DNA of 64,000 nucleotides. Origin: Comamonas testosteroni. Its GTDB lineage: Bacteria; Pseudomonadota; Gammaproteobacteria; Burkholderiales; Burkholderiaceae_C. Shown piece by piece: positions 5,801-27,440 of this stretch. The translations under genes and the position numbers were made by a program. Positions within the stretch are counted from its first letter, which is position 1, and every line of letters begins with the position of its first letter. Where the stretch lies: NCBI RefSeq assembly GCF_003569915.1, contig NZ_KZ984440.1, positions 124,001 through 188,000 on the forward strand, read 5' to 3'. The notes below the pieces were generated by a model. The model did not search any database, was not told the origin of the DNA, and saw nothing but the letters and a program-made list of their open reading frames with translations.

Positions 5801-5802
5801 AC

Positions 5803-6480
5803 CTATCTGCCGACCGTCTCGAGCGTATCCACCAGATGAGTGCGTGAGTGGTTCGAGTAGGTAGACCACGTGGGCACGTAGCTCTCATCTGCTTGATTGC
5901 CCCAAATATCCCACCCAGGACGCTCTCCCCGGGCAAACATCTCTAAATAGGGTCCCGGGCTGCATGACTGAATAAGGTCGTACTGCTCGTCGGGTTTGCG
6001 TGAGTGCTCGCGCTTTCTGGTGCCAATGTAGTTAACCTGCGTGCGGCCGGGGTCCAGTGTTCGAGCATTTTTTCCGCGTACGCCGAACAGAATAAGTTCT
6101 GTGACGTTGCGGAAATAGAATCCAACACCGCGGCCGTCACTGCCTCCGTCCTTGCGAAGCTTGTGCCAAACGAGATTGCTCTTGTATTTAAAGCCCCATG
6201 CGGCCATGACTGCGAGGCCCTCGGGGAGCAGGGCGTTTGGCACCCACAGATAAAGGTGCGCTGTGTCCTCAGCAGCGGACTCGACAGGTAGCGCCTTAAT
6301 GTCGTCTAGCGTCATCGTGCCATAGCGATTTAAGCGATGGTGCTCTGGAGCAACTTTTCCGGTTCGATTCTGAAATTGCCAAGGTGGGTCGGCGAGGATG
6401 GTCTTGAACTTTCGGCCATCCACAAATTTCTTAAAGTCTGCAACTGCCAAGTCGCCGACGGAGTTATCTTGCTGCGTCAT
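5803..6480 (-). CDS. MT-A70 family adenine-N6 DNA methyltransferase
   Basis: This 225-residue protein has the catalytic DPPW motif at about residues 31-34 (ILADPPWQF). Later segments are typical of the MT-A70 family (LYLWVPNALLPEGL, then KSNLVWHK). It should transfer a methyl group from S-adenosylmethionine to adenine N6 and protect host and phage DNA from the adjacent endonuclease. The start at 6480 follows a good GAGGAAA ribosome site. An earlier in-frame ATG at 6525 would overlap the preceding gene. It is probably co-transcribed with the small RHH protein 7 bases upstream. Confidence 0.85.
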   Translation of the reverse strand: MTQQDNSVGDLAVADFKKFVDGRKFKTILADPPWQFQNRTGKVAPEHHRLNRYGTMTLDDIKALPVESAAEDTAHLYLWVPNALLPEGLAVMAAWGFKYKSNLVWHKLRKDGGSDGRGVGFYFRNVTELILFGVRGKNARTLDPGRTQVNYIGTRKREHSRKPDEQYDLIQSCSPGPYLEMFARGERPGWDIWGNQADESYVPTWSTYSNHSRTHLVDTLETVGR

Positions 6481-6487
6481 CTTTTCC

Positions 6488-6709
6488 TCAAAACGTTCTG
6501 CCGCGACCTGCAAACTCTTTTTCAAGAGCGGAAATTATTAGTGATTGCACCGTGCAACGTTCATCGATGGACAGTTGTTGTAAGCGTGCCCACCTGCTGC
6601 GGGGTAACCGAAAGCTGGTTTGAATCACTTCCTCGACAGAAGCAGGTCGGGCAGTCGGCCCGTCTGGGGGGCGAGGTGTCTTCCTTGGTTTCGTGCCATC
6701 AATAGTCAT
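6488..6709 (-). CDS. Ribbon-helix-helix-like small DNA-binding protein
   Basis: This 73-residue basic protein has a Pro/Arg-rich N-terminus followed by a segment (about 30-68) resembling Arc/MetJ-type ribbon-helix-helix proteins: a short strand with T-S-F-R-L-P, then two helices. It is encoded just before the methyltransferase. It lies downstream of a region with nested inverted repeats, so it may act as the transcriptional regulator of the restriction-modification cassette. That role is inferred from position only. No strong ribosome site is seen before the ATG. Confidence 0.6.
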   Translation of the reverse strand: MTIDGTKPRKTPRPPDGPTARPASVEEVIQTSFRLPRSRWARLQQLSIDERCTVQSLIISALEKEFAGRGRTF

Positions 6710-6752
6710 ACGTTGTGCGTGATGAGTAGTCCTACTTCAGTCTGATGGTAGG

Positions 6753-6802
6753 TTGGTAGCACTTTACCATGCATTTTTGGTAACTTGGGGGCGCGCTACC
6801 AA
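6753..6802 (-). promoter_or_regulatory. Nested inverted repeats upstream of the R-M regulator
   Basis: TTGGTAGC (6753-6760) is the inverse of GCTACCAA (6795-6802). Between them lies TTACCA (6764-6769), paired with TGGTAA (6778-6783). These sites lie between the tail terminator gene and the RHH-like gene and are good operator candidates. Confidence 0.5.
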
Positions 6803-6819
6803 AAAATTAGGGCTCCTGT

Positions 6820-7209
6820 CTAGCTCAGTTCTTGCACGCGCGTGGTCTTGAAAGTGAGCGTGTAGTAACGTGCGTTGTCTTCAAAGTCGCTCTCGCACGA
6901 GACGTAGCGGAGACGCTGGAAGTAATGCAGGGCGCGGATTGCGGCGAAGATGGCTTGGCCGTCTTCTTTGCCGGAGGTAGAGGCGCCACGGCACATGACC
7001 ACGACGTCGTAAGTCTGGGAGGCCTCGAAAGCCTCGTCGCCAATCTCTTCAGTGACTTGCTCACCGCCAAAGCAAACGACGGCCGTGGTGCCGGCCGGTG
7101 CGCCGCGATGGGTAGCAGCTTGCTCGGAAGTGATGGCGCGGATTGCGGGTACTTCGGCAGCCAGGCGGTTAGCGATGACTTCGCAGAAGTCGAAATAGTC
7201 AGGTGTCAT
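6820..7209 (-). CDS. Phage tail terminator-like protein
   Basis: This 129-residue protein follows the Mu G-like gene with an ATGA overlap and is the last head-tail connector gene before the R-M insert. Position and size (first codons M-T-P-D-Y-F-D-F) fit a tail terminator or tail completion protein that caps the tail tube. No diagnostic motif was recognised, so the name rests on synteny. Confidence 0.55.
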   Translation of the reverse strand: MTPDYFDFCEVIANRLAAEVPAIRAITSEQAATHRGAPAGTTAVVCFGGEQVTEEIGDEAFEASQTYDVVVMCRGASTSGKEDGQAIFAAIRALHYFQRLRYVSCESDFEDNARYYTLTFKTTRVQELS

Positions 7210-8253: not shown

Positions 8254-9183
8254 TTAGATGGTCACAATCTTGATGCCACGAGTGGTGTAGATGTTGCTCT
8301 CACCGTTGGCCTTCTGAGCCTGGTTCACCAAGTAGTCGGCGGCCAGGGCAGGGGCGGTACCGGCCTCGACCACGAGGTAGGGGTACTTACGCAGCATGCG
8401 CTCGCCGGCAGGGTTGCGGAAGCTGTAAGCCAGGTCCAGAGCTTCTTGGTAGTTCTCGGGAGTCAGAGGCTTGTTGGAGCGAACGTGCGTGTAGCACAGG
8501 CCGGGGCAGTATGCCTTGCGAGCGCGGATACCTGCGGTCAGCACGTCGTAGAAGAAGGCGCGTTCGCTGTCACCGGCGAGGTGCTGAGCCGTGAATTCTT
8601 CTTGCGTGATGGCCAGGATGGCGCGGTCAGCCATGACGTACCAGTACGCACCGCCTTGGCCCTCGGGAGCAACGATGTCGTTCACGATAGTTTGGGCGAC
8701 CACGGGCTTACCGTCTTCGTCCTTCACGACGTTGCCGCTGTTGTCGGTCTGCAGGAACGTGTGGGTGCCAAACATGGGGGAGCCGGTGAAGGGGCTTTCC
8801 TTGTTCAGGCGCAGAACGTCCAGGATTTCTTCCTGCTCGGTAGTTTGAGCGGCCTCGAACAGCTGCTTGCCCAGCACTTGGCCGTTTTCGAAGGCGGAGT
8901 GGTCTTCGACATCCGTCAGCGGGATATCGTAGGTGTCTTCGAACAGGTCGATGGGGATGGAGAGGCCCATGGCCTTCAGGCGCTTGATGAAGCGCTCGCC
9001 AATCCACAGGCGACCACGGCTGCCCGGAGGGATGAGCATCGCTGCGCGATACACGCCACCGGTGGCCTTATCGTGAAACACGATACCGCCCAGTTCGTTC
9101 AGGAAACCGGCCTTCAGGCCAGCGAGGAATGCGAGGGTGCTTCCGCCTGCGATTGCGTTCAGGCCTTCTTTTGTCAATGCCAT
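8254..9183 (-). CDS. Mu T-like major capsid protein
   Basis: This 309-residue protein lies directly after the protease/scaffold gene. It begins M-A-L-T-K-E-G-L-N-A-I and contains W-I-G-E-R-F-I and D-I-P-L-T-D-V-E-D segments typical of Mu gpT-type major heads (HK97 fold). The length fits the family (about 300). It forms the icosahedral head after scaffold removal by the upstream Mu I-like protease. A hairpin follows the gene directly, consistent with a separately stabilised abundant message. Confidence 0.85.
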   Translation of the reverse strand: MALTKEGLNAIAGGSTLAFLAGLKAGFLNELGGIVFHDKATGGVYRAAMLIPPGSRGRLWIGERFIKRLKAMGLSIPIDLFEDTYDIPLTDVEDHSAFENGQVLGKQLFEAAQTTEQEEILDVLRLNKESPFTGSPMFGTHTFLQTDNSGNVVKDEDGKPVVAQTIVNDIVAPEGQGGAYWYVMADRAILAITQEEFTAQHLAGDSERAFFYDVLTAGIRARKAYCPGLCYTHVRSNKPLTPENYQEALDLAYSFRNPAGERMLRKYPYLVVEAGTAPALAADYLVNQAQKANGESNIYTTRGIKIVTI

Positions 9184-9215: not shown

Positions 9216-9635
9216 TTACAGGACGCGGCCGGAGCGGGCCATGTCTGAGGCAGCCTTGGCGAACACGTCGTACGAGTAGCCCAGTGCGTCGGCACGCTTC
9301 ATCTGGTCAGCGGTAAGGCCGAAGGTGGCCTTGCCGGAGGCAGCAGCAGAAGCGGCGGCCGGAGTTGCGGGGGTCACTTGCTTGGACAGGTTCGCGCTGA
9401 AAGCGGCGCTCTTGCCCTTGACGGCCTGCACGTCGGTTGCCAGCGCATCGACCTTCTCGGTCAGTGCGGTGAGGGCCGTCATGGCAGCGGCAACGGCCTC
9501 GGCGGTGGAGTCCGTAGCGGCAGGAGCTGCTTCAGCAGCAGCGGCGGCAGCCGTCACAAGCGCCTGCACGGCGGCTGCGACATCAGCTTCGGTGGAGCCT
9601 TCAGCGAGGCCCAAAATTGCGATGAGTTGTTCCAT
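9216..9635 (-). CDS. Internal in-frame scaffold (Mu Z-like) product
   Basis: Within the protease gene an in-frame ATG at 9635 (M-E-Q-L-I-A-I-L) would give a 139-residue Ala/Thr-rich helical protein that ends with the protease. Mu encodes its scaffold Z as exactly such an internal product of gene I. A promoter-like element lies 17-43 bases upstream inside the coding sequence, which strengthens the case. The ribosome site is poor. Confidence 0.5.
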   Translation of the reverse strand: MEQLIAILGLAEGSTEADVAAAVQALVTAAAAAAEAAPAATDSTAEAVAAAMTALTALTEKVDALATDVQAVKGKSAAFSANLSKQVTPATPAAASAAASGKATFGLTADQMKRADALGYSYDVFAKAASDMARSGRVL

Positions 9636-10232
9636 TCCGGTAGAGGAAAAAGAGTTGCGATGCGATGTATAGGCATCGTTTCCAGCTACTGAAGAGGGAG
9701 CAGGCATGCGCGTAAATGCGACCGGCATCTCGGTGGCAGGGTTGTTAGTGAGAGCGTTCGACTTCACCGACGTGATGCGAAACGAGGACTCAGAAGTGAC
9801 GCCCCCAAGGGACACAGCGCTCGTGTATCCAAAGTGCTTGTTGGCCAGCGCCTCCAAACCCAGCTCATTCAGCTCGAACAGGCCGTACAGAACGCCAGGC
9901 TCCAACCCCAAATCTGGTGCATGGTCTGCGGTGACCAGCGCGTAGGCCCAGCCGCGAGAGCGCGTGTCGGCCGCACCGGTCTCAGTTGCATGCTCCACGT
10001 CCAGCGGCAAAGGACGCGCGGGGTCAAAGTTGCCGATGACTTCAGCAGCGTCGTATGTGTATTCGATGCCGTGGCGGGCGTCATCAGAGAACGTGCGGAA
10101 CGGCGAGGCCGGCAGCACAGGGATAGCGTGAACGGTCACTTCAGTGCCGTCGGGCTTTGGAATCGTCGTTGTTGGCGTCTTCACGGGAGAAGCTGCAAAC
10201 GACGTCTTTGCTTCAGACTTGATAGCGGGCAT
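9216..10232 (-). CDS. Mu I-like prohead protease/scaffold
   Basis: This 338-residue protein precedes the major capsid gene. Its N-terminal half (about 1-190) resembles Mu I-type serine proteases, with L-P-L-D-V-E-H-A-T-E and a G-Y-T-S-A-V-S-L-G segment supplying candidate catalytic His and Ser. The C-terminal half is a low-complexity Ala-rich helical scaffold. The start was set at ATG 10232; an in-frame GTG at 10259 is possible. A terminator and a promoter-like element (GTTAGCTACACGTGC) stand just upstream. Confidence 0.8.
   Translation of the reverse strand: MPAIKSEAKTSFAASPVKTPTTTIPKPDGTEVTVHAIPVLPASPFRTFSDDARHGIEYTYDAAEVIGNFDPARPLPLDVEHATETGAADTRSRGWAYALVTADHAPDLGLEPGVLYGLFELNELGLEALANKHFGYTSAVSLGGVTSESSFRITSVKSNALTNNPATEMPVAFTRMPAPSSVAGNDAYTSHRNSFSSTGMEQLIAILGLAEGSTEADVAAAVQALVTAAAAAAEAAPAATDSTAEAVAAAMTALTALTEKVDALATDVQAVKGKSAAFSANLSKQVTPATPAAASAAASGKATFGLTADQMKRADALGYSYDVFAKAASDMARSGRVL
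9652..9678 (-). promoter_or_regulatory. CTATACATC promoter-like element inside the protease gene
   Basis: The minus strand reads GATGCCTATACATCGCATCG, then CAACTCTTTTTCC. It matches the elements before the trfA-like gene and the gene starting at 22647, including the downstream CAACnnCTCTTT-like part. It lies upstream of the internal scaffold ATG at 9635. Confidence 0.45.
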
Positions 10233-10246
10233 TGCACGTACGTAAT

Positions 10247-10270
10247 GGTTGATATGCACGTGTAGCTAAC
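10247..10270 (-). promoter_or_regulatory. GCTACACG promoter-like element
   Basis: The minus strand reads GTTAGCTACACGTGCATATC upstream of the protease gene. The previous unit's terminator stem ends only a few bases earlier. Confidence 0.55.
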
Positions 10271-10541: not shown

Positions 10542-11588
10542 TCAGAGTTTGCGGGCGTAGAAGATGGAAGACTGCGGAAGCTCTGCGTCAAGGTCGGAAA
10601 GTGAGAGCAGGCCAGCAGCTGCTGCTGAGCCTGACTGCAAAAACAGCCTCACGAACAGGTTGTTGCCAAGAACCTTGCCAACGTCGCAGCTGAAAGAGGG
10701 CAGTATCTGGTGGCCAAGAGTCTCCAGGCCGGCAATCTGCAGCGGGCGCAGCACAGGGCCCGCCTCCGTCAGGGATAGCAGGGCTGCAGGAGAGCCGTAA
10801 GCAGCGCTGCTGATGCTCAAGAAAGCCAGCTCGTCGCTAAGCGTGACGACAGGGCAAGCGGAGGTGAGTCCCGGCACGTCGTGCTCGGTAAGCACCATGG
10901 TCCGTAGGTCGATGGTGCACAAGCGGTAAGAGCCAGTAGCGCCAGCAGCACGTCCGAAGCCGACAAACGTATCGCCCAGGATGGTCACAGCGTACGAGTA
11001 AAACTCGTGAGTAAGCTCGGGCAGCTCAGTCACGGTGCGAGTACCTAGGTCAAAGACGCAGGTTCGATTCCCGGTCCCGCCTACTGCGCGCACGACCAGG
11101 AGGCGGTTGCGGCGTCTGTCGTAAAGAGGAATAGTCGAGTAGCCGGGGTTACCCAGCACTGAGCCGAGACGGGACCAAGTCTCACTTTCCGGCTCGTAGA
11201 ACCAAACCGCAGTTCCTTGCACGAGATAAAGCCCGTCGTCACCTGCGGCCCCGTACGGGTAAGTGGTGGCCATTCCGTTTTTCGGGCAGACGGCGCCTTC
11301 CCCCGTCAAGATGTTGTGGCGGCGCAAGGCATTGGTGGTGAACATGTAGACATGCTCGTCGCTTAGCGGGTCGCGTAGCCATCCGACATTAGTCGCGCCA
11401 GGGCTGGAAATAGAGCTATCTCCCTTCGTGAACGGCAGGAGCATCAAGCGGGCACCGAGCGTGCCGTGGATTGCGGGGTCGACGCGGACTTCGCGCATGC
11501 GTTTCCAACCGCGAGGCGTATCCGGGCGCGCGAACAGCTCAATGGTGCCTGGGATGACGGGCGTAGCGCCGGCAGAGACGAGGCTCAT
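10542..11588 (-). CDS. Kelch/beta-propeller-like phage protein
   Basis: A 348-residue protein shows repeated blade-like segments of about 45-55 residues with patterns such as Y-L-V-Q-G-T-A-V-W-F-Y-E-P and L-Y-D-R-R-R-N-R-L-L-V, suggesting a six- or seven-bladed propeller. It lies between the decoration-like gene and the protease and overlaps the former as ATGA. A virion surface or receptor/glycan-binding role is plausible but not shown. It could also be a host-gene-derived decoration; no catalytic motif was seen. Confidence 0.5.
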   Translation of the reverse strand: MSLVSAGATPVIPGTIELFARPDTPRGWKRMREVRVDPAIHGTLGARLMLLPFTKGDSSISSPGATNVGWLRDPLSDEHVYMFTTNALRRHNILTGEGAVCPKNGMATTYPYGAAGDDGLYLVQGTAVWFYEPESETWSRLGSVLGNPGYSTIPLYDRRRNRLLVVRAVGGTGNRTCVFDLGTRTVTELPELTHEFYSYAVTILGDTFVGFGRAAGATGSYRLCTIDLRTMVLTEHDVPGLTSACPVVTLSDELAFLSISSAAYGSPAALLSLTEAGPVLRPLQIAGLETLGHQILPSFSCDVGKVLGNNLFVRLFLQSGSAAAAGLLSLSDLDAELPQSSIFYARKL

Positions 11589-11902
11589 TGCAGCACCTCC
11601 ACGATGACAGTACCGGGCCCAGAGGCGGTAACCCGAATTGCGGACAGCTTTGTGCGAATTTCTTCAATCGCTTGCGAGCCTGCAGTCACTACTCCGGCGT
11701 CGCCGATGGCGGCAGGGATGAAGACGGGGTCGAGGGAGGCGTGCGACAGGCTCACTTCAACCATGGCTGTAGTGTTTGCGTCACACGAGACGGAAAACGT
11801 CGAATTCGGGAGAAGATTCGACGCTAGAAAAGGCTTGTCAGCTGTGACAGAGCCGCGTGTATGCGTGCCCAGCGTAGACACGTTTGTGATTGTTTTCGTC
11901 AT
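11585..11902 (-). CDS. Putative head decoration-like protein
   Basis: This 105-residue, beta-rich protein begins M-T-K-T-I-T-N-V-S-T-L-G and is rich in Thr/Ser/Val. It overlaps the propeller gene start by four bases, so the two are made together. Size, composition and location next to the head genes suggest a decoration or minor virion protein; no motif proves it. The start at 11902 was chosen over 11962 because the extra N-terminus is unlike phage proteins. A weak CTCTACAC copy of the promoter-like element lies about 30 bases upstream. Confidence 0.45.
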   Translation of the reverse strand: MTKTITNVSTLGTHTRGSVTADKPFLASNLLPNSTFSVSCDANTTAMVEVSLSHASLDPVFIPAAIGDAGVVTAGSQAIEEIRTKLSAIRVTASGPGTVIVEVLQ

Positions 11903-11985
11903 CGGAATCCAATGGAGTTGTTGGAGGAGATGACTTGTGTAGAGAGCGAAAGTGAGTATCAACCCCCGAAGTGGAGGACGGACAT

Positions 11986-12285
11986 ATGAAGTGGATTACG
12001 GGACTCGTCGGCGATTTATTCTCCGGAAGAGACAGCCTGCACGAGGCGCTGGAGGAGCGAGACTTTCTGAGTGCGCAAGTTGACGCGATGGAGGCGGGAA
12101 AGCCCATGGTCAACATCGACGGCTCACCGATGATGGGTGACGTCGACATTCACGGGAACCCCTTCGGCGTCACCAGTCCTGACTCGTTCGGTGGTGGATT
12201 GAGCGGCGGCGTCGATGATTCGTGGAGCAGCGGTGGCGGCTTCAACGACGACTCGTTCGGTGGCGGGATGGGCGGCGGCTTCTAA
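11986..12285 (+). CDS. Glycine-rich small protein on the opposite strand
   Basis: A 99-residue protein has a helical, charged N-terminus (M-K-W-I-T-G-L-V-G-D-L-F) and a C-terminal third made of Gly/Ser/Asp/Phe repeats. GGAGG lies 8 bases before the ATG, a clear start. It runs against the surrounding phage genes, beside the putative replication origin. It is a likely moron or a regulator linked to replication; the family is not recognised. Confidence 0.55.
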   Translation: MKWITGLVGDLFSGRDSLHEALEERDFLSAQVDAMEAGKPMVNIDGSPMMGDVDIHGNPFGVTSPDSFGGGLSGGVDDSWSSGGGFNDDSFGGGMGGGF

Positions 12286-12450
12286 CGCTGGAGGCGCTTC
12301 GCGTATGCACCAGGGCAGAGCTGCCGGGGAACCGCCTTTTAAAATTCATGAAGAGGTTCACATACAAGAAGTCTCAGCTCAGCGCAGCACTTGCTTGGTG
12401 AATACGACGCGCAGCGTCTATTTGCATCCTCTGCGGGGAATCACCTTGGT

Positions 12451-12492
12451 AACGAACAAATCCTGGAGAAGCTTTTCTCGGTTTTGTTCGTT
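12451..12492. repeat. 10-bp inverted repeat in the origin region
   Basis: AACGAACAAA (12451-12460) is perfectly inverted at 12483-12492 (TTTGTTCGTT). It lies between the opposite-strand Gly-rich gene and the AT-rich stretch at 12515-12532. Confidence 0.55.
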
Positions 12493-12514
12493 TTCAGGTT
12501 TCAAGAATTTCCCT

Positions 12515-12687
12515 GATTTAATATATTATTTCGGCCCCTCAAACGCCTACTGCTGCAACGCTTTTTCGGCGTGGTGGTGTGTAATTTCGCCGAAACTGGT
12601 GTGTGGTTTCGCCAAAGTCTGCTTGGTTTTTAAGCAAATTTCTCCTCCTGACCATTCCTTGCCGCCTCGCCGGTGTGTAATTTCGCC
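12515..12687. other. Candidate iteron-type replication origin
   Basis: Two copies of a 16-mer, GGTGTGTAATTTCGCC (12576-12591 and 12672-12687), and one variant, GGTGTGTGGTTTCGCC (12598-12613), lie 3' of the TrfA-like gene. The first two copies are spaced exactly 22 bp, the helical spacing usual for iterons. An AT-rich tract (TTAATATATTATTT, about 12517-12530) adjoins them. A Rep gene, iterons, an AT-rich segment and a nearby inverted repeat together form the layout of an iteron plasmid origin. Function is inferred. Confidence 0.6.
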
Positions 12688-12705
12688 AATTGCTTTTGGC
12701 CAAAG

Positions 12706-12726
12706 AAAAAGGGCCCCGGAGGGCCC
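12706..12726 (-). terminator. Terminator of the trfA-like gene
   Basis: A 6-bp GGGCCC/GGGCCC stem with a CGGA-type loop is followed by TTTTT on the minus strand, 19 bases past the stop codon. Confidence 0.75.
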
Positions 12727-12744
12727 TAACTAAACCTTGTCGAC

Positions 12745-13527
12745 TCAGTGTACTTGCTCTGAGCCACCGCGCTTGGTGATGCGCACTTTTCCATCCTTGA
12801 CGTCGAAGCTGTCAATCTCTCCAGCCTCCACCAGCCCACTCAGCTCTTTCTTCAGCACACGAGCAAATTCTTTGCCGGTATAGCCCGTCAGTCCGGACCA
12901 CTCTTGAACGTCTTCGAGTTTGAAGGGGACGAAGCACGCATCAGCTTTGACGAACGAGTAGAGCCAGCTTTCCAGGCCGTCCTTCGCAGCGAAGCGGACG
13001 GCTTTGTCGATGCATGTGAATGTGCTGTCAGCGAGCATGTTGGCTACGCGCTCGCTGAGCCACACGCGCCAGCGGCCACGCTCAAATTCAACGTCAGACA
13101 CGAAAGAGTACAGTGCTTCCTTCTCGAGCGTCAGGAGGCGTACTCGGGCGCGCTGGAGGCGCTTCAAGCTGTCTTTCAGCACTTGTACGCTGGAGGAGCT
13201 ATCCGCACGGCCCATCGCGACGCAAAACTCGCGAGGAGAGAACTGCAGTGCACGTGTGGCCAGCGAGCCTTCGCGCATCTTGATGAGCATCAACAAGACG
13301 CGCAGGTCATCTTGCTGCAGCTCTTCGCCAGCGTAAAAGAGGCGCACGCGCTTATTGTGCGTCGGCACTTCGACTTCCTGCTCATGCACCAAGCGAGAGC
13401 CCTTTGAGGCCTTGAACAGCGCGGACTTCAGCAGAGCGGGGGCGAACATCAGGGTGTCGCGGTGCATCTTCGGGATGAAGCCTTCGGCGGCTTCGGTTCG
13501 TGCTGTTGCGAGGGAGATTTGGGGCAT
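12745..13527 (-). CDS. TrfA-like plasmid replication initiator
   Basis: This 260-residue protein resembles the TrfA family of broad-host-range plasmid initiators. An M-F-A-P-A-L-L-K-S-A-L-F segment precedes two winged-helix-like halves, with L-Q-Q-D-D-L-R-V-L-L-M-L and later F-A-A-K-D-G-L-E-S-W-L-Y-S-F, which match the TrfA layout. Such proteins bind iterons, open the origin and recruit host DnaA/DnaB. Iteron-like repeats lie just 3' of the gene. It has its own promoter-like element and terminator. Finding it in the head-gene block of a prophage is unusual. Confidence 0.8.
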   Translation of the reverse strand: MPQISLATARTEAAEGFIPKMHRDTLMFAPALLKSALFKASKGSRLVHEQEVEVPTHNKRVRLFYAGEELQQDDLRVLLMLIKMREGSLATRALQFSPREFCVAMGRADSSSSVQVLKDSLKRLQRARVRLLTLEKEALYSFVSDVEFERGRWRVWLSERVANMLADSTFTCIDKAVRFAAKDGLESWLYSFVKADACFVPFKLEDVQEWSGLTGYTGKEFARVLKKELSGLVEAGEIDSFDVKDGKVRITKRGGSEQVH

Positions 13528-13548
13528 TGTGGTTCTCGAAAAAGAGTG

Positions 13549-13569
13549 GTTGATACTGCGTATAGCAAC
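13549..13569 (-). promoter_or_regulatory. GCTATACG promoter-like element before the trfA-like gene
   Basis: The minus strand reads GTTGCTATACGCAGTATCAA, almost identical to the copy at 22671-22691. It ends about 20 bases before the initiator ATG. Confidence 0.6.
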
Positions 13570-13606
13570 TGCGCAATCGTTCCCTCTTCCTCCCCGCCTT
13601 GCTCAT

Positions 13607-13634
13607 AAAAAAAGCTACCACGAAGGTAGCTTTT
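13607..13634. terminator. Terminator after the small membrane protein pair
   Basis: A long AAAAGCTACC/GGTAGCTTTT stem is flanked by A and T runs, so it may work in both directions. It separates the small membrane genes from the trfA-like unit. Confidence 0.75.
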
Positions 13635-13654
13635 ATGAATCAAGAAATCAGGGG

Positions 13655-13780
13655 TTAGCCGCCGCGGTAGCGGGGGTTGCCGTCTCTCTCGTAGAGCTTC
13701 TGAAGTTGCACGTACTCGTAATACAAGTACCCGGTCCCGGCTGCAAGCAGCAGAACAAGAACAACAAATAGCTTCTTCAT
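13655..13780 (-). CDS. Small membrane/secreted phage protein, 41 residues
   Basis: The frame reads M-K-K-L-F-V-V-L-V-L-L-L-A-A-G-T-G, then a polar tail ending N-P-R-Y-R-G-G. It is either a single membrane anchor or a signal-like peptide. Its ATG overlaps the stop codon of the preceding gene (ATGA), indicating coupled translation, and a terminator follows. No function is recognised. Confidence 0.6.
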   Translation of the reverse strand: MKKLFVVLVLLLAAGTGYLYYEYVQLQKLYERDGNPRYRGG

Positions 13781-14956: not shown

Positions 14957-15337
14957 GTGATTACAGACAACAGACCCCTCGCTTTCGTGCGCACGCACCC
15001 GTTCCAAGAGGGCGCTTATCTCGTGTATGTGCCGGACTTAGTTCCGCGCGGCGAAGAATGGTCAACTGCGGGCGAAGACTCAGACGACTGCGAAGAGGAC
15101 TGCTGCGCTTATGCTGCGCGAATCGCCCATGATGCAGCTGAAATCACGCAACTCATTGCGCCACATTACAAGCTTGCAAGCGCGGGAGAAAGCGAGCGCT
15201 ACCCTGGCGGCCCGCTGCCTGTCGACGTGCTCGCGCTGGTGCGGGCCAGGCTCGACTTTTGGCCTCTGCCTCCGTTTATTTCCGAGTGCATGCGCACTCC
15301 CGTTGAGCCTGAAGACCCGGACGAGTACTTAGGCTGA
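14957..15337 (+). CDS. Moron protein B, acidic paralogue
   Basis: This 126-residue protein follows moron A by 36 bases. The start is taken at GTG 14957, with GGAG 7-10 bases upstream. It is strongly acidic, with a Glu/Asp/Cys cluster near residues 38-50 (E-D-S-D-D-C-E-E-D-C-C) and a C-terminal P-E-D-P-D-E-Y. Its 3' end overlaps the convergent Mu F-like gene by 9 bases. The charge is reminiscent of DNA-mimic anti-restriction proteins, but no such family match can be claimed from reading alone. Confidence 0.65.
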   Translation: MITDNRPLAFVRTHPFQEGAYLVYVPDLVPRGEEWSTAGEDSDDCEEDCCAYAARIAHDAAEITQLIAPHYKLASAGESERYPGGPLPVDVLALVRARLDFWPLPPFISECMRTPVEPEDPDEYLG

Positions 15338-16015
15338 AAGCTCGCGCATGCGCTTGTCTAGGAATTGCTGCAGGTCCCTCGCCCTCGCAGAAGGTGGTGC
15401 ATTGAACCCCGGGGTTACGAGCACTTCAACGTTGCCCGGGGCCACCAGCTTGATTCGCTTGGAGGCTCCTTGCAAGTACGTCGCTTGCTTGATAGTCAGC
15501 GAGTCAACGCGGCAGCGGCAGCCGTGGCCATTCGGCGGGTAGATGACTTTCCAGATTGGGTCGGATGCGGGGAGCATCAAGCCCTCAAGCTGGCTGTGTT
15601 CCAGGCGAACACGGCTGTCGCGCATAGTGCGGTAGAGCAGGTACGGCCGAGTATCGTCGGTGAGCTGATACTCATAGCGGCCAGCGTTGTACGCGCTGCG
15701 CAAGAGCGTCTGCATCACTTGCCCGGCGGCCGGCGTGGACAGTGCCTCGCCAGCGATATCTCGAAGCTTCTGCACGTCCAGGGCATTCGCATCCATCTGC
15801 CCCGCTGCGACGGCCGCGCGTACGCGGTTCAGGATGCGCTGGGCCTTTTCGGCCGCAACAAGCGAAGTGATGTACTCTGCGCTGTCGTATGAGGCAGCAG
15901 TGGCGACGTTAAGAATGTCTTCCTTCTTTGCGGCACTGACCGCCACCTTCACTTTGCCGAGGAAGCCTCGGGCTTTTTCCGCGATGCGTGCTTGAGCAGC
16001 TTTCGATAGAGGCAT
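15329..16015 (-). CDS. Mu F-like minor head protein
   Basis: This 228-residue protein ends with the block Y-R-T-M-R-D-S-R-V-R-L-E-H, then Y-P-P-N-G-H-G-C-R-C, the signature of phage Mu F / SPP1 gp7-type minor head proteins. It lies next to the portal gene with a one-base start/stop overlap. It is shorter than many Mu F proteins (about 400), so it may represent mainly the conserved C-terminal module. It helps portal incorporation and DNA packaging initiation. Confidence 0.8.
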   Translation of the reverse strand: MPLSKAAQARIAEKARGFLGKVKVAVSAAKKEDILNVATAASYDSAEYITSLVAAEKAQRILNRVRAAVAAGQMDANALDVQKLRDIAGEALSTPAAGQVMQTLLRSAYNAGRYEYQLTDDTRPYLLYRTMRDSRVRLEHSQLEGLMLPASDPIWKVIYPPNGHGCRCRVDSLTIKQATYLQGASKRIKLVAPGNVEVLVTPGFNAPPSARARDLQQFLDKRMRELSA

Positions 16016-17637
16016 TACGCGCCTCCAAGATTAGCGCCAGCACTCCCTGCAGCAGAGCAGCACGCGCAAGCAGCGGCAGATTGCTCAGCGAACCCCGGCG
16101 CCTGCTCCCCAGCATCCTTGGTGAATGCCTGGAGGGCAGCTTGCAGCTCGACCAGTGACTTGGCACCCTTGATAGCCGTCAGCAGCTTGCGGTCCATCTC
16201 GGCTTCATCAAGCTCTTTGATGATTGCGTCGATTTCATCCCCTTCTTCCGCGGAGAAAGACGACGTTGTCGATGCACCAGAGAACGACTGAGCGGAGAAG
16301 AGCGGTTGGCCAAATGTGTCAGGGGCAGCGGGTGCCTCCAGCAGCTCCTCATCAGTCTCCGGCTCGCGCAGGCCCAGCATTTCGCGCATTTCAGTCTGCG
16401 AGACCTTCAGGCCATACGGCAGCAGCTTGGCGACGTTTTCAACAGTCGCCTGCACGTCCTTACCCGTTTCGGCTTGGAAGTAAACCTCAGGGACTTCGAC
16501 GTCGTCACCGAAATTCAGGCGAACGAATGGCTCGAGAATGTCGCGCTTCACCGTCAACGCCAGCGCTTCTTTGTCGGCGCGTGTGTATTCTTGGCGCACT
16601 TCGTTGTGCACGTTGCCGAGTGCGTTCGTGTTGGAGCCGGCGGCACTTGTGCCCGAAGTGAGCGATGCGCCGAGGATTACGGTAGCGATGATTTCGTCGG
16701 CGTAGCGCAGCAGCACTTGATGCAGAGCGCCGGTCGAATTGCTGGAAGCGGCTTCAATCAGCTCAATCTTTGCACCGGCCGGCAGCAGGCCGTACGCGTC
16801 GGAGCCCAGCGACTGAAGGGCTTCAAGCAGCACCTTGGCCAGCTGTTCTTCCTCGTCAGGCGTGAGGCGGGACGTTTCGGGGTCCGGCATGTTGCCGACG
16901 CGAATGGGCTCGCCGTAGCGCTCAATCAGGCCCAGCAGCAGGCCGACAACGGCTGGGGACGTGAACGCAATAGGCAGCAGCTGGAACGCCAGCCCAGATT
17001 CGTACACGTGGCCAAAGCTATGCTCAGGCACGTGAATAGCGAACTTGAAGGGGTCCAGTTCCAGTGGAGTGCCCCCGGCCTCGGCGGGCAGCAGCAAGGG
17101 CACGCGCCCCGTGCTGTCGAATGTCAGGTTACGAGGCGACACAGGCACCGAGCGCTCAAGCTTGCGCAGCTTGCCGGGCCGGTCTTCTTCCCACACCAGC
17201 TCCACCGCGGCTAGGCCGAGGTAGATGCCCAGCAGTAGTGGGCTAAATGTCTTACGCACCTCAACAGAGCGCAGGAAGTCGAGACAAGCTTTGTCGACCG
17301 CTTCGTTTCCCGTCTCAACTACATAGGGAATTTGCCCCGTTACGGCCAGCTTTCGCGTGTTCCAGGTCGAAGCAAGCTTCGGGATGGAGCGCAGGGCGGT
17401 TTCCATCAGCTCCGCGTATGCACCAGGGTCTTGGTGGGTGCGCAGCTTCTCCATCGCGTTTCGCACGTTGGCCTGCGAAACCTTGAGCCCAAAAGCTCCG
17501 CGGGGCGTGTTAGACCGGGCGGAGAGCATGCTATTCAAGCGCTGGTACAGATTGTTGCCCGGCTTGACCGCCGAGGTTTCGCTTACAAGCGCCTTTTCGG
17601 CCGGCGCTTTGCGAGATTTGAAGAGTTGTTTGAGCAT
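16015..17637 (-). CDS. Mu gp29-like portal protein (DUF935)
   Basis: This 540-residue protein begins M-L-K-Q-L-F-K-S-R. It matches DUF935 portals along its length, including T-G-Q-I-P-Y-V-V-E-T and L-L-G-L-I-E-R-Y-G-E-P-I-R-V-G. It forms the dodecameric DNA gate at one vertex. The start at 17637 was chosen because upstream in-frame codons fall inside the terminase gene. The C-terminus (from about 480) is a Glu-rich and then Ala/Cys-rich tail. Confidence 0.85.
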   Translation of the reverse strand: MLKQLFKSRKAPAEKALVSETSAVKPGNNLYQRLNSMLSARSNTPRGAFGLKVSQANVRNAMEKLRTHQDPGAYAELMETALRSIPKLASTWNTRKLAVTGQIPYVVETGNEAVDKACLDFLRSVEVRKTFSPLLLGIYLGLAAVELVWEEDRPGKLRKLERSVPVSPRNLTFDSTGRVPLLLPAEAGGTPLELDPFKFAIHVPEHSFGHVYESGLAFQLLPIAFTSPAVVGLLLGLIERYGEPIRVGNMPDPETSRLTPDEEEQLAKVLLEALQSLGSDAYGLLPAGAKIELIEAASSNSTGALHQVLLRYADEIIATVILGASLTSGTSAAGSNTNALGNVHNEVRQEYTRADKEALALTVKRDILEPFVRLNFGDDVEVPEVYFQAETGKDVQATVENVAKLLPYGLKVSQTEMREMLGLREPETDEELLEAPAAPDTFGQPLFSAQSFSGASTTSSFSAEEGDEIDAIIKELDEAEMDRKLLTAIKGAKSLVELQAALQAFTKDAGEQAPGFAEQSAAACACCSAAGSAGANLGGA

Positions 17638-17647
17638 CAGACGTTCG

Positions 17648-19141
17648 TTAGCTTTTACGAGCGCCTCCTCCCCCGATGTACTTGAAACGCGAGGGCGCGG
17701 ACTCTGGGACGCTCTCAAACGTGTAGCGACTGAAAAGGTAGAGCCAAGCTTGAATGGCTGAGTCGACGACGTCCCGCGGCTTGCTCTTCGGGAATGCGTC
17801 ACTCATCGACAGGAAGTACTCGTTGTCTGGGTCGTCTTCAATCAGCCAGACCTTCCCCTGCTCCAGGTAAGTAGAAGCCAGGCGGGCCCGTTCTGTCTTG
17901 CCCAGCGTAGGCCTGTAGGCGACGATAGGGAGCCCGGACCTTGCGGCCTTCAACTGCTGAATGAGCCCTTTACCGCTTGGGCCCGCCTCTTCGATAATGA
18001 GGATGGTCCCAGCCGGCCACTGCTTCGCATACGCAGGGACACGCTTGTGCAGCTCGGGAACAGTCAAGTACTCTTCCAGCTGTCCGAGCTTGAACACGCC
18101 TTCTTTGCCGGCTTCGTTCGACAGCCCCCAGACGGTCGCCCCCGTCGGGTCATTTGCCTCGTTGTCAGAGGCCGCCGTGTCAAAGCTGATGTAGTGCGCA
18201 AAGAACTTCGGAAGCATCTTGCGCTTGATGAACTTGTAGTGTGCGCGCTTCAAGATGCCGCCGCCTCGCGGGGCGGGACGTTGCTGCAGCTGCCCGGCTG
18301 TGCCGTACTCCTTCAAGCTAGCTTTTAGCTCGTTGATGCGCTTGAGCGGCATGAATTCAGGCCACAGCAGCTGACCCTCCTCAGTGCGAGGGTCCTTGAA
18401 TATGCTGGTCGAGCAGGCCCGTGCTCTCTCAAATTCGGCGGGAAGCATCAAATGTTCCCAGCCTCCGGTTTCGAGAGCCACAGAGCTAAGGTCAGACGCC
18501 GAAAGGCGCTGCATCGTCAGCACCATCGCAGATGTAGGGCCGTTAAGCCGGGTGCTGAACACCACGTTCCACCACTCAGTAGTGGCCTCGATGTACGCGT
18601 CTGAGTCCATCTTTATGGAGTTTTGCGGGTCATCGGCAATGAGGATGTCGCCGCCTTCGCCCACGCCACCGGCCGGAGTCATGAGAATGCGGTGACCCAT
18701 GTGCGTGTTCTCGTAGCGAGTCTTTTCGTTCTGGTCTCGCTGCATTGAAAAGGCGTCACCGAACCTGGCCTGAAACCATGTGCTCTGAATCACACGACGG
18801 CTCTTCAGGGCGTCTCGGATAGCGAGGCGTTCCCGGTAAGAAGCGGTCAAGAATTGACGGCTGGGGTTACGCAGCCAGTCCCAGACTGGCCAGAGGACGC
18901 TAACCAGCAGCGACTTCATGTGCCGAGGTGGCACATTGATAAGCAAGCGCGAAATCTGGCCTTCGCTTACTGCCTGTAGGTGTTCACAGATGGCGTGAAT
19001 GTGCCAGCCGTCCACAAACGGCTTCCCTGGCTCAAGCACATGCCATGCGCGCTTGGCAAACTCATAGAGGGAACGACGGCAAATCTCCGCCTCGATATCG
19101 AGAGCGGAGAGTAGGTGGAGCAGTGTTTGACGGTCGGTCAA
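17648..19141 (-). CDS. Terminase large subunit (TerL)
   Basis: This 497-residue protein has the Walker-A-like loop PPRHMKS at 71-77 and a Walker B strand ILIADDP near 166-172. A C-terminal nuclease domain starts around YISFDTAASD (about 315). The P-P-R-H-x-K-S form is common in Mu/T7-like large terminases. It powers DNA packaging into the head and cuts concatemers. The start overlaps the small subunit stop as ATGA. Confidence 0.9.
   Translation of the reverse strand: MTDRQTLLHLLSALDIEAEICRRSLYEFAKRAWHVLEPGKPFVDGWHIHAICEHLQAVSEGQISRLLINVPPRHMKSLLVSVLWPVWDWLRNPSRQFLTASYRERLAIRDALKSRRVIQSTWFQARFGDAFSMQRDQNEKTRYENTHMGHRILMTPAGGVGEGGDILIADDPQNSIKMDSDAYIEATTEWWNVVFSTRLNGPTSAMVLTMQRLSASDLSSVALETGGWEHLMLPAEFERARACSTSIFKDPRTEEGQLLWPEFMPLKRINELKASLKEYGTAGQLQQRPAPRGGGILKRAHYKFIKRKMLPKFFAHYISFDTAASDNEANDPTGATVWGLSNEAGKEGVFKLGQLEEYLTVPELHKRVPAYAKQWPAGTILIIEEAGPSGKGLIQQLKAARSGLPIVAYRPTLGKTERARLASTYLEQGKVWLIEDDPDNEYFLSMSDAFPKSKPRDVVDSAIQAWLYLFSRYTFESVPESAPSRFKYIGGGGARKS
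17711..17730 (-). promoter_or_regulatory. GCTACACG element inside the terminase gene
   Basis: The minus strand reads GTCGCTACACGTTTGAGAGC near the 3' end of TerL, about 75 bases before the portal start. It may give an extra promoter for the portal, or match by chance because it lies in coding sequence. Confidence 0.3.
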
Positions 19142-19632
19142 TCGGCCCCCGCTTTTTGCTGCAGGGCTTCCAGCTGCTGTAGTTCCTCAAGAGACAGCGC
19201 GCCTAGGTCCACTGTCTTCTCTACCTTGACCGCACCGCCATCTGCACCAGTCAGCTCGGTTTTGGCAGCCGCGAATGCACCAGTCAGCTGCGCTTCGTGG
19301 CCCATGACCTTCAACAGGGCCTGCAAGTCGGGTGCGACAGCGTCCGCGCCAAGCACTCTAGGCATCCACTTGGCCATGATTTGCTCAAGTTGCTCCAGCT
19401 GCTTAGCCCGGTACTCGGTCGAAAGCTCCCGTGTGTCCTCAATCAATGCACCACGTTCCCGCGCCAGCACGGCGTGGACACGGCCGACAGACAGGGAGAA
19501 TTCATCAGCAAGCTCACGAATCGTCTTGCCCTCAATGCGAGCCTCTACTATCTTTTTGTCACGCGCGGCGCGGCTCAGCGCCTTGACTGCGGGCGCTGGC
19601 TTCTTCTTTGGAGTGGGTGCGCGAGTGGCCAT
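19138..19632 (-). CDS. Terminase small subunit-like protein
   Basis: A basic N-terminus is followed by a helix-turn-helix segment (about 35-60: T-I-R-E-L-A-D-E-F-S-L-S-V-G-R-V). The rest is a long helical region and a Leu/Glu/Gln-rich tail. It lies directly before TerL with an ATGA overlap. Size (164 residues) and domain order fit a small terminase that recognises phage DNA and loads TerL. Confidence 0.8.
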   Translation of the reverse strand: MATRAPTPKKKPAPAVKALSRAARDKKIVEARIEGKTIRELADEFSLSVGRVHAVLARERGALIEDTRELSTEYRAKQLEQLEQIMAKWMPRVLGADAVAPDLQALLKVMGHEAQLTGAFAAAKTELTGADGGAVKVEKTVDLGALSLEELQQLEALQQKAGAD

Positions 19633-22797: not shown

Positions 22798-24294
22798 TTA
22801 TGGCGTCCAGGTAATGCCGAGGTTGTAGCGCTTGTGGCTCGCAATCTGGCGAGCTTCTGCAACAGCGATAGCGGCATCAGACTCAGCGTCAAGCTGCTTG
22901 AGAATGAACTGCGGTATGACATAGCTGCGCACATCTTTAGTCAGTGCTGACTTCGGTCGCTTTCCAATGATTTCCTCAATTGCGTAGCCTACACTGTCCG
23001 CTACAGTGCGCATCGCGGACTCCTGCCCTTTGATATAGTCGAGCGTAATCTGCGGCACTCCGATGAAACTTGCAATCATCTTATTAGAGTGCATCAGCAG
23101 CAGTGAGATATGCGGCAAGTGCTGCGGTGCAACGGTACACGCGAGAGACGCAAACGTTCTGCGCAAGTCGTGCTTTGAGACATGCATGCCGATGTATTCC
23201 TCGAGGGCTCGCCACGCGCTTCTTGGGTCTTGAAGTCGTTCGCTGCCCTTTCGAGTTTTATCTCCCGACTCTCCGTAAAACACCCACGGATTATCTTTGG
23301 GCGCGAAGTGGCGGCGGTAGCGGAGAATCTCAAGTGCAAGCTCGGAGAGGGGCAGGCGCTTGTCTATTAACCGAGCGGCTGCGGATAGGTGGGCTTTGCG
23401 GTCTTTCGCGCCCGGTGAGAGGGGCTTAATGTAAAGCACGCCTTCCTCTAAGTCGATATTCTCCCAGCGTAAATCCCGCACGAGGGAGTCGCGCAGGCCC
23501 GTGAGCAGATATATGCGAAACATATCGCGCCATCCAGGCGCCATTAATTCACCAGAGCCCAGCCAGGCCTTGCCGAGTTTATCGAGGGGAATGAAAGTGC
23601 TGCGCTGATTAGCCGGCTCAGTTTTTTTCATCGCAGCAAGTGCGGGGTTCCAGCCCAGCGGCTCGTCCACGATTCCGTTATTCTCGTGTGCGATTGAATA
23701 TAGGCGGCTAATGCAGCTGAATATGCCTTCAATGGTGGCAACCGAGAGCGGCTGTTTCTTCTTATTAACCGCAAGCTCTCCAGTGCGAAGTCCATCCCGG
23801 AAGGATTTCCAAAATGGAACTTTCAGGTCCTCCAGGCCTTTGTGCTCAAGGGGCTGTAAATAGTTTCGATAGTTGTTGCGTAGCTTGACTTTATAAGACT
23901 CTGACTCAACCGAAAAAGGAGAGTCCAGGCTGTCGTGAAGAAGTCCTGCCGCTTCTCCTACGGTCATTTTGATGCGCTGGCCGGAGGAGTTTGCTTTCGT
24001 CCTTGTGATGTAGCGCAGAGCAATCGTCTTGGCGTCATCGAACGTCAAGACGTTCTCCCCCGTGCCCAGGTCCTTCGCAATCCCCAGCGTCTTCTTCTTG
24101 TCTTTGTACTTGCCCGTCGACTGCAGCTCTTTGTAGCGGACAACGTAGTAGCGCTTGTGCTCTCCGCGCGCTGTCGTTGCAGAGACGCGGGCGATGAAAC
24201 CGGGCTGGCTTGAGTGAGACATCTCAACGAAGGGCTTGCCGTCCGCCGGGGGAGGCGCGTTGAGGACATCGCTGAAAGAAGAAAAAGTTGCCAT
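22798..24294 (-). CDS. Prophage tyrosine integrase
   Basis: This 498-residue tyrosine recombinase has catalytic residues R268 (T-G-L-R-D-S), H375 and R378 (K-H-D-L-R-R-T), H402 and the nucleophile Y420 (Q-I-T-L-D-Y). An N-terminal arm-binding region (about 1-100) and a SAM-like core-binding domain (about 110-235) precede the catalytic part. It is the outermost prophage gene, with its start facing the intron-bearing tRNA-Ile. Unlike most phage units here it lacks a GCTAYACG element upstream, so it is probably under separate control. Confidence 0.9.
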   Translation of the reverse strand: MATFSSFSDVLNAPPPADGKPFVEMSHSSQPGFIARVSATTARGEHKRYYVVRYKELQSTGKYKDKKKTLGIAKDLGTGENVLTFDDAKTIALRYITRTKANSSGQRIKMTVGEAAGLLHDSLDSPFSVESESYKVKLRNNYRNYLQPLEHKGLEDLKVPFWKSFRDGLRTGELAVNKKKQPLSVATIEGIFSCISRLYSIAHENNGIVDEPLGWNPALAAMKKTEPANQRSTFIPLDKLGKAWLGSGELMAPGWRDMFRIYLLTGLRDSLVRDLRWENIDLEEGVLYIKPLSPGAKDRKAHLSAAARLIDKRLPLSELALEILRYRRHFAPKDNPWVFYGESGDKTRKGSERLQDPRSAWRALEEYIGMHVSKHDLRRTFASLACTVAPQHLPHISLLLMHSNKMIASFIGVPQITLDYIKGQESAMRTVADSVGYAIEEIIGKRPKSALTKDVRSYVIPQFILKQLDAESDAAIAVAEARQIASHKRYNLGITWTP

Positions 24295-24772
24295 GACAGT
24301 TTTTTAGCGAGGAAAAGGGAAAAATTTCTTTTCCACGATTTTTCCACGGAAAAAATGGAAATCAGGGCTAACGTTTCCAAAGAGTTGGGCTTTTTCCGCC
24401 TGAAAAGCATCTTTGAAGCATGAGTGGCTACGAAATGAGTAGCACAAAAGCTAGTGTTTGCGGGGTCTCAGAGCATTCTTTGGTCGAAATCAGGAATCAA
24501 TTCTTGGCCATATTTTTCCAATGATGGTTAGGGCAGACTACTCATAATCAAGAGGCCAGAGCGATTAACCGTCACTTTTTTCGGACTGGTTGCTTGATTC
24601 CAACGCTTTGAAATCAAGCACTTACAGCGTTCTGGCGATTTCGCCGGATTGCTACCGAGGAAGCTGGAGGGTAGGCGCTTGCTACGTTCTTGCTACTGAA
24701 GGAGAAATGGCGTTTTTTTCGGCGTCCCTCTGGGTCGCTGAAAGCGCGGAGAGTTGAAGTTGTTTTATGAAT
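24295..24772. other. Non-coding prophage right border
   Basis: This 478-bp stretch lies between the integrase start and the tRNA-Ile and should contain the attachment site. It carries A/T-rich runs near the integrase start and the nonamer CTCATAATC (24541-24549), identical to the spliced tRNA anticodon loop. It also has a short palindrome GGCGATTTCGCC near 24634. No protein gene could be supported. Confidence 0.4.
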
Positions 24773-25113
24773 GGGCCGTTAGCTCAGTTGGTTAGAGCAG
24801 AGGACTCATCGAAATGGTGACCTTGCCGTGAAAGCGGCAATGGAAAAACCGGGTGAACTCAGGGAAACCGTCAGCCAGTCAATGGCCCGGCAATCCTGAG
24901 CCAAGCTCGCCGAAGGCAGGTCGAAGGACCGGTAGGCGAGAAGGTGCAGAGACTAGGGTGTGAGGAGCCAATCCGATAAGCATCCCAAGAGCGCCCGGCA
25001 CCCTAACGCGCGAAGCAATTCGCGGCGAGGGTGGTGAGATAGTCCAGGGAATGGGGAAACTCATGCAAACCTGAATCCTTTGGTCGTTGGTTCAAGTCCA
25101 ACACGGCCTACCA
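24773..25113 (+). tRNA. tRNA-Ile(CAU) interrupted by a group I intron
   Basis: Exon 1 is 24773-24809 and exon 2 is 25074-25113. Joined, they form a complete cloverleaf: acceptor GGGCCGT/ACGGCCT (one G-U pair), D-stem GCTC/GAGC, anticodon stem GAGGA/TCCTT with loop CTCATAA, T-stem GTTGG/CCAAC and an encoded CCA. The CAU anticodon with this body fits the elongator-type tRNA-Ile whose C34 becomes lysidine and reads AUA, rather than tRNA-Met. The intron follows the third anticodon base. Confidence 0.9.
24810..25073 (+). ncRNA. Self-splicing group I intron in the tRNA-Ile anticodon loop
   Basis: This 264-nt insert has the marks of a group I intron. Exon UCAU plus intron C pair with GGUGA (24816-24820) to make a 5-bp P1 with the conserved U-G at the 5' splice site. 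GCAGAGACTAG (24946-24956) and GATAGTCC (25038-25045) supply the P7 strands. The last intron base is G (25073). It has no reading frame for a homing endonuclease. Known relatives are the tRNA-Ile(CAU) intron of Azoarcus (205 nt) and tRNA-Arg introns in Agrobacterium. Confidence 0.88.
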
Positions 25114-27410: not shown

Positions 27411-27440
27411 CTCAATCTCACTTCCTTCATGCCATAGACC

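Follow-up and report, generated by a model that had tools for sequence, protein, structure and literature searches.

A plasmid-type initiator gene and two distant iteron arrays as the probable replication module of an integrated tailed phage

The 64,000-nt window, that is, the whole stretch of DNA analysed here, contains part of an integrated tailed phage with a gene for a plasmid-type replication initiator, rep, an array of exact direct repeats beside it (array B), and, farther off in the same prophage, a second array of the same repeats (array A). From the sequence, we consider that Rep and arrays A and B probably constitute a replication module belonging to the phage itself, in use once it has excised or has infected a cell, and give this reading a probability of roughly 0.7. 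It is favoured by the initiator superfamily to which Rep belongs, the purifying selection on rep, the exact repeats at 22 bp, the AT-rich tract, the retention of both arrays in the phage contig G149 with concerted evolution within each phage, and the runs of 22-23-bp spacings at seven of 13 TrfA-type loci; points against it are that each array has three iterons with the third off the 22-bp register, that a DnaA box and a GC-skew turning point are lacking, that the PF07042 model does not match Rep, that G149 is the one independent relative found, and that six of 13 TrfA-type loci are without a run of 22-23-bp spacings.

The prophage has two attachment sites and one recognised replication gene

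The prophage is 35,777 bp long between 38-nt repeats. Self-BLAST identified the attR-side core (24772..24809, +; 38 nt, 97% identical to the attL side), and the attL-side core lies at C2:112995-113032. The attR-side core falls in the 5′ half of a tRNA gene, which has a CAU anticodon by reading and which we presume to be tRNA-Ile. This gene is interrupted by a group I intron at 24798-25066 (Rfam RF00028, 65 bits), and it was not listed by ARAGORN. Beside the attL side, a second degenerate tRNA 5′ fragment was observed (L011:9260-9299; 87.5% identical to the attL side), which is perhaps the leftover of an earlier integration.

The integrase noted in the preliminary description is a tyrosine integrase (22798..24294, −; Pfam PF00589, 2.5e-10; PHROG 1). 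The structural genes include a probable small terminase gene (19138-19632), a Mu-type portal gene (16015..17802, −; Pfam PF06074, 5e-66), a Mu F-like head morphogenesis gene (15329..16015, −; Pfam PF04233, 1.2e-13), a head maturation protease (9216..10259, −; PHROG 328, 2e-20) and the major head protein (8254..9183, −; PHROG 371, 4e-17), and spanin-like genes, the large terminase, connector genes, the tape measure and a tail tip gene are also present. Comparison of 39 further prophage ORFs with Pfam at E≤0.01 gave 17 families, including Mu-like head, tail and lysis families, with Mu-like_Pro and Mu-like_gpT matches falling somewhere among these ORFs and two weak helix-turn-helix matches (E 0.0035 and 0.0083).

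No replication, transposition, partition (ParA/ParB) or lambda-type repressor family was found by Pfam in the 39 ORFs, some short ORFs lying outside the scan. By these family scans of the prophage ORFs Rep is therefore the only recognised replication gene, in agreement with the earlier remark that no other is visible in the phage part, and an unrecognised one may be present in the ~5 kb left of array A or in the unscanned short ORFs. A G2P-type (filamentous phage) replication gene was found next to the right attachment site (26379-27443; PF05144, 3e-22); lying beyond that site, it was rejected as the phage's own, and it is possibly part of a neighbouring inovirus-like element.

Three other observations concern the gene content of the prophage. 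A restriction-modification pair (4907-6525) combines an Endonuc-BglII match (5e-26), presumably that of ORF 4907-5800(+), with a facing adenine methyltransferase (5803-6525, −; MTase_II, 1.8e-95), and no match in G149 is listed for either ORF. A 348-aa protein encoded at 10542-11588, between rep and the protease gene, is 35% identical in G149, and its ORF is perhaps the one behind a weak Kelch_6 match (7.5e-5) among the 39 ORFs. Two adjacent genes at L011:11858-13216 have similar C-terminal ends by eye and are perhaps paralogues.

A plasmid-type initiator and iterons alongside phage structural genes also speak for a phage-plasmid, namely an element that Rep and the arrays would additionally maintain as a low-copy plasmid in lysogens, the integrated copy being one of two states. 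Plasmid-type initiators are known from published phage-plasmids, of which a few P1-like examples occur integrated, according to the consulted part of PMC10879196. Against this, the element has an integrase, lies between two attachment sites at a tRNA gene and is integrated in this assembly, and the ORFs scanned include no ParA/ParB family, while cluster A mycobacteriophages, as described in the part of PMC7157519 consulted, swap the integration cassette for parABS. The life as a plasmid proposed in the preliminary description thus found no support: nothing shows that lysogens keep the element as a plasmid, a state that we regard as unlikely. The use of the plasmid origin in lytic growth, proposed there as the other possibility, would be the better option.

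A divergent initiator of the Rep_3/TrfA superfamily

The rep gene (12745..13527, −) encodes a Rep_3/TrfA-like replication initiator of 260 aa, as judged by Pfam, tblastn, hhalign and dN/dS, and its position between the MuF gene and the protease and capsid genes is the one first described. In the Pfam searches, Rep scored only just above the curated cut-off for Rep3_N (Rep_3 initiator superfamily, PF01051; 23.4 bits against 22.4) and stayed under that of RPA (23.5 bits against 27). The TrfA model (PF07042) did not match Rep at E≤1, and when the model was searched against the phage's own host genome, a gene on contig C47 was the sole match and Rep was not among the matches.

Using tblastn against plasmids, 146 records were found to match Rep, all below 60% identity, 135 of them covering at least 80% of the query; the best 20 are annotated as trfA, with E values down to 8e-21. 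In hhalign, the two phage Reps (of this phage and of G149) aligned with 10 TrfA-type proteins at 99.8% probability (E 3e-30, 29% identity, 227 columns), and the tblastn and hhalign results together indicated that the homology to plasmid TrfA extends over most of the protein. Residue 31 of Rep pairs with column 117 of the TrfA profile, so that most of the N-terminal region is absent and the N-terminal extension of plasmid TrfA is missing. The same search with tblastn against phages found nothing, at 1e-5 or at E≤1.

Foldseek with a low-confidence Rep model (pLDDT 58.5) gave seven PDB matches at E≤0.001 (E 2e-6 to 8e-4, TM 0.33-0.39), namely three RctB chains, two chains of 8ac8 (a Rep-DUE complex) and two chains from a co-crystal series, the last two being taken as initiators because other rows of the series name RepE54. 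With this model the TrfA structure 9a0w ranked 33 (E 0.09), and a PDB sequence search with Rep gave no match. In a tree of 15 proteins the two phage Reps pair on their own long branch; one of the proteins, from G059, was trimmed of its first 280 residues, and its own long branch makes its placement unsure. Between rep and its G149 homologue, dN was 0.19 and dS 2.1 (NG86; dS near saturation), giving a dN/dS of ~0.09, which indicates that rep is under purifying selection.

Since Rep shows homology to plasmid trfA in both tblastn and profile comparison and forms a long branch, yet is unmatched by PF07042, it is best described as a divergent member of the Rep_3/TrfA superfamily, TrfA-like and not TrfA by the Pfam test. 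The preliminary term TrfA-like accordingly holds at the level of hhalign and plasmid tblastn, whereas the TrfA profile, whose failure to match had been named there among the refuting outcomes, did literally return no match.

Directly after rep and ahead of array B lies a terminator-like hairpin (12710..12727, −), a weak candidate, as such hairpins number three in the region against 2.5 expected in shuffles. Upstream of rep lies a TTGCTATACG box (13559..13568, −), common to other prophage sites: seven were found in all, at 13559, 14114, 22252 and 22681 of the window and at 12536, 13563 and 14898 of L011. The prophage also has one TTGCTATACC, and the 58 kb outside it contain one TTGCTATAC; in G149, TTGCTATAC stands before rep and before the gene adjoining array A. 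At four of the seven sites, that of rep not included, TATAAAA occurs 7-8 nt upstream of the box. The box looks like a shared phage promoter or (repressor) operator and is a candidate for either; as it is shared, rep may come on together with further early genes and not be expressed in the manner of a plasmid rep.

Two arrays carry every exact iteron of the genome

Array B (12485-12687) sits just past the 3′ end of rep, between convergent genes, the gene convergent with rep (11986..12285, +) having a G149 homologue (54% over 57 aa). It contains three exact direct repeats of GGTGTGTNNTTTCGCC next to rep, all on the + strand and at the spacings first reported: iteron 1 at 12576..12591, iteron 2 at 12598..12613, 22 bp from iteron 1, and iteron 3 at 12672..12687, 74 bp from iteron 2 and followed by AATTG; the 74-bp spacing is no multiple of 22. 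Iteron 1 and the 22-bp spacing are kept in all four arrays compared, that is, arrays A and B of this phage and of G149. With up to three mismatches to GGTGTGTNNTTTCGCC allowed, the window has nine matches against 6.5 expected, the six non-exact ones all having three mismatches.

To the left of the iterons, an AT-rich tract (12514..12532, +), 43 bp from iteron 1, is a candidate DNA-unwinding element, and the block that holds it, with TGATTTAA and ATTT, aligned and was kept in 4/4 arrays. The AT-rich character noted from the letters proved marked, the best 50-bp window of array B being 76% AT and within the top 0.05% of the prophage's 50-bp windows. Upstream of the tract, the 13-mer TGTTCGTTTTCAG (12485..12497, +) is identical in the four arrays. 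Still farther left is a long-range inverted repeat whose left arm, GCGCTTCGCGTATGCACCA (12294..12312, +), is identical left of 4/4 array regions and whose right arm (12396..12416, +) has a similar block in each of the four; the two arms pair in the predicted fold of the + strand. The shorter inverted repeat pointed out in the preliminary description is present at 12451..12492 with 21-nt arms of 81% complementarity; as its left arm is missing in the other three arrays, it was rejected as a core part of the origin.

No DnaA box (TTWTNCACA, at most one mismatch) was found in array A or B, and the cumulative GC skew turns at neither of them. The group I intron was the only Rfam match at gathering score in window positions 1-30000, and an Rfam RNA at the array was therefore rejected. 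A scan for promoter-like sites in 11900-13700 found none, a result of little weight given that the same scan finds none for rep.

Array A (C2:118471-118794, on contig C2, in the same prophage and outside the window) has exact GGTGTGTNNTTTCGCC iterons at C2:118666, 118688 and 118773, 5.2-5.3 kb left of the window, spaced by 22 and then 85 bp, against 74 bp in array B. Self-BLAST indicated that arrays A and B are 78% identical and directly repeated over 325 columns, and the best AT-rich 50-bp window of array A is in the top 0.1% of the prophage. In the 4.94-Mb genome there are six exact copies of GGTGTGTNNTTTCGCC, three in array A and three in array B, and up to one mismatch gives seven matches, the three of each array and a single one-mismatch site on C13; the reversed-pattern control for this genome-wide count gave 0 and 2. 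The arrays are separated by 17,910 bp, which is 0.5006 of the 35,777-bp prophage, a half-genome distance that may be chance as it was seen in one genome only.

Elsewhere the repeats are rare. Within the genome that carries the phage, BLAST with the array found exactly arrays A and B, and across 298 other genomes of the family sample it gave three matches, 21-36 bp long; the iteron-pair pattern occurred in one of 149 genomes, again the own genome; and searches of plasmid and phage DNA with the array gave no matches. Among contigs, 126 stretches fitted a pattern in the scan with the Rep pair, none of them a relative, and the scan with the iteron pair gave 0 matches, the own genome possibly lying outside the sample in both scans.

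Iteron initiators often repress their own promoters, and array A lies upstream of two divergent genes, both of which could suggest that the Rep-like protein regulates transcription, with the arrays serving as its operators. However, array B lies between convergent 3′ ends, a position more in keeping with an origin than with an operator, the conserved AT-rich tract resembles that of an origin, and no exact iteron occurs upstream of rep; a purely regulatory role is accordingly very unlikely.

Both arrays are kept in the relative G149 and appear to evolve in concert

IMG/VR scans with Rep, with the Rep pair and with the portal pair returned only the own phage (L014, 100% identical over 20,780 bp) and G149 (L015), an uncultured phage contig of 28,738 bp that may be a fragment; a scan with the strict iteron pair returned only the own phage. 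The two phages are 75% identical in Rep, 81% in the portal and 73% in TerL, and share their gene order from C2:117720 to window position 22198 with variable genes interspersed. In G149, the array next to rep has iterons at 19815/19837/19911, and a second array, 17.5 kb off, has them at 2252/2274/2348/2380, so that both arrays are at the same two places in the two phages. Four of these seven iterons are exact and three have one mismatch; the spacing from iteron 2 to iteron 3 is 74 in both G149 arrays. An eighth iteron-like site, with two mismatches, is isolated at 28283.

The inverted-repeat pair, TGTTCGTTTTCAG, an AT-rich block containing TGATTTAA, the first two iterons at their 22-bp distance, TTTAAGCA, and the third iteron together with AATTG are common to the four aligned arrays. 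The AT-rich tracts are weaker in G149 (top 0.7% for B and top 1.5% for A). Invariant columns made up 44 of 48 iteron columns against 86 of 172 other core columns (12 with gaps), with a Fisher p of 4e-8 that is descriptive, the iteron columns having been picked from the same alignment.

Within each phage the cores of A and B are 82.2% (own phage) and 80.3% (G149) identical, whereas between phages the identity is 74.5% for A-A, 71.2% for B-B, and 74.5% and 76.0% for the cross pairs. Because the array cores are closer within each phage than to their counterparts in the other phage, the sequences indicate concerted evolution; the alternative, two independent duplications into the same places, is less likely.

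Distant relatives resemble the phage in the head module and not in replication

Portal matches were found in 15 genomes, the own genome included, and five loci were compared, 10 of their many ORFs being scanned by Pfam. The 20-kb stretches surrounding the portal genes in these five distant relatives (28-35% identity) yielded no Rep homologue. Among the ORFs scanned, L084 has a Mu transposase C-terminal domain and L085 has GemA; L082, L083 and L084 have one AAA_22 ATPase each, MuB-like by our reading of size and place; and L086 gave no match to a Mu-type early gene. By sequence comparison, then, the head module is distantly similar to those of Mu-like phages, and Mu-specific early genes are present in at least two of the latter, while the replication shows no such resemblance. 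In G137, one of the five, a Rep-like match lies on another contig, and in G204 a Rep-like match with an internal stop lies 48 kb from the portal match.

Rep-like matches were found in eight genomes in one search and 12 in another, both including the own genome; at these loci gene context was assigned by Pfam for L069, L070 and L071, and repeats were sought at six. At seven of 13 TrfA-type loci (L010, L070, L071, L072, L074, L077 and L081) there are direct repeats spaced by 22-23 bp at least twice in succession; three loci (L073, L076 and L078) have isolated 22-23-bp spacings, and the other three (L069, L079 and L080) have no repeats so spaced. One of these, L010 (G000:C47:1-3445), is on contig C47 of the own genome and encodes a true TrfA (PF07042, 3e-23) with, by reading, a ParA-like ORF; C47, a 16-kb contig, is probably a plasmid. 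Its five TrfA iterons are spaced 22, 23, 22 and 106 and have another sequence, which sets the phage repeats apart from those of the cell's other TrfA.

The surroundings of L070 include TrbL, T4SS and Mob_Pre families, those of L069 a type I restriction system and those of L071 IS21 genes. Of 18 Arsenophonus plasmid records with a TrfA match, two were viewed whole; both have conjugation genes, and neither has an annotated phage structural gene. Thus the TrfA relatives viewed in other genomes are in plasmid-like or conjugative settings. Beside the TrfA-type gene of L072, six regular near-identical repeats were also observed (6444-6869; ~37 nt kept, 68-72 apart), CRISPR-like by reading.

The missing Rep homologue in the five portal stretches, together with the lack of anything else plasmid-like nearby, could be taken to mean that rep and its array are a decaying plasmid remnant carried as phage cargo. 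This is highly improbable in view of the dN/dS of rep and of arrays that are kept at two places in two phages and evolve in concert, and it would leave the phage without a recognised replication gene. That the arrays are packaging or recombination sites between genome halves, unconnected with Rep, deserves hardly any weight: two directly repeated copies of this identity and distance could recombine, but neither array adjoins the probable small terminase gene, and conservation falls on the iterons and several short blocks and does not extend over a single long identical core.

A possible mechanism and its meaning

Plasmid TrfA and RepE bind their repeats, open AT-rich DNA and load the host helicase. 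Should Rep and the arrays serve the phage as its replication module, Rep would be made after induction or infection and is predicted to bind the direct repeats of arrays A and B; it would then melt the AT-rich tract to the left of the first repeat, and host helicase and replisome would be loaded for theta replication of the circular phage DNA, presumably with lytic timing. Both arrays may be origins, or one may be the origin and the other a control or enhancer site.

A wider scenario, which is tentative and on balance doubtful, is that an integrative phage lineage with Mu-like head genes swapped replicative transposition for a plasmid-type initiator and has a two-site origin, whose near-equivalent iteron/AT-rich units, about half a genome apart on the excised circle and gene-converted, would both be bound by Rep and would either both fire or pair across the circle and so control initiation.

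If Rep and the arrays do replicate the phage, it would be an integrative tailed phage relying on a single plasmid-type initiator and host enzymes for its DNA synthesis, and it would illustrate how plasmids and phages exchange replication modules with no phage-plasmid arising. Its two arrays, which evolve in concert, would offer a small natural system for the role of a second distant array as origin, enhancer or handcuffing partner, and scans for phage-plasmids by rep gene alone could misfile such elements.

Comparison with known systems

Satellite phage P4 has two separated cis-acting repeat regions, ori and crr, both bound by one initiator, which belongs to another protein family than Rep, and the distance between its repeat regions is shorter than in the phage described here. 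The IncP-type TrfA replicons (PF07042) have a homologous initiator and direct repeats beside its gene, whereas the phage Rep is unmatched by PF07042, has a long branch and lacks most of the N-terminal region, and the phage is without a DnaA box, has two arrays 17.9 kb apart, shows no par family and is integrative.

The systems below are compared as described in the consulted parts of the sources named. Among the titles and abstract openings listed for TrfA, iterons and Rep_3 in phages, a set in which subscription literature is mostly uncovered, none describes an integrative phage of the kind found here. A TrfA-related gene occurs in an integrated plasmid region of Arsenophonus (PMC13202766) and another on a plasmid of Piscirickettsia, where ParA and ParB domains also occur (PMC6963756); by what was seen of both accounts, neither case is an integrative phage. 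Lambda-like modules are unlike that of the phage described here (PMC7924643, PMC11131426). The extrachromosomal mycobacteriophages with RepA are similarly temperate with a plasmid-type replication gene, but are without an integrase and carry parABS (PMC7157519).

SGI1 and related islands are likewise integrated and have an iteron origin with an initiator gene, and three yicC-specific islands encode a TrfA (PF07042) homologue; SGI1-type islands are, however, tied to IncC plasmids, whereas the phage has its own head, tail and lysis genes (PMC8409611). Gram-negative PICIs are also integrated, replicate after induction and have an iteron and AT-rich origin immediately 3′ of the initiator gene; in their origins two iteron sets flank one AT-rich region, with a primase and Rep (PMC6092414), whereas the phage has one AT-rich tract per array and its own capsid and tail. 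RepA of the Vibrio cholerae satellite PLE has been shown to bind iterons and drives replication of the integrated element after excision, but belongs to the RepA_N family and needs the helper phage ICP1 (PMC7145576). By way of working, the closest systems are the SGI1 rep-oriV and the TrfA-bearing islands, the Gram-negative PICIs and PLE RepA.
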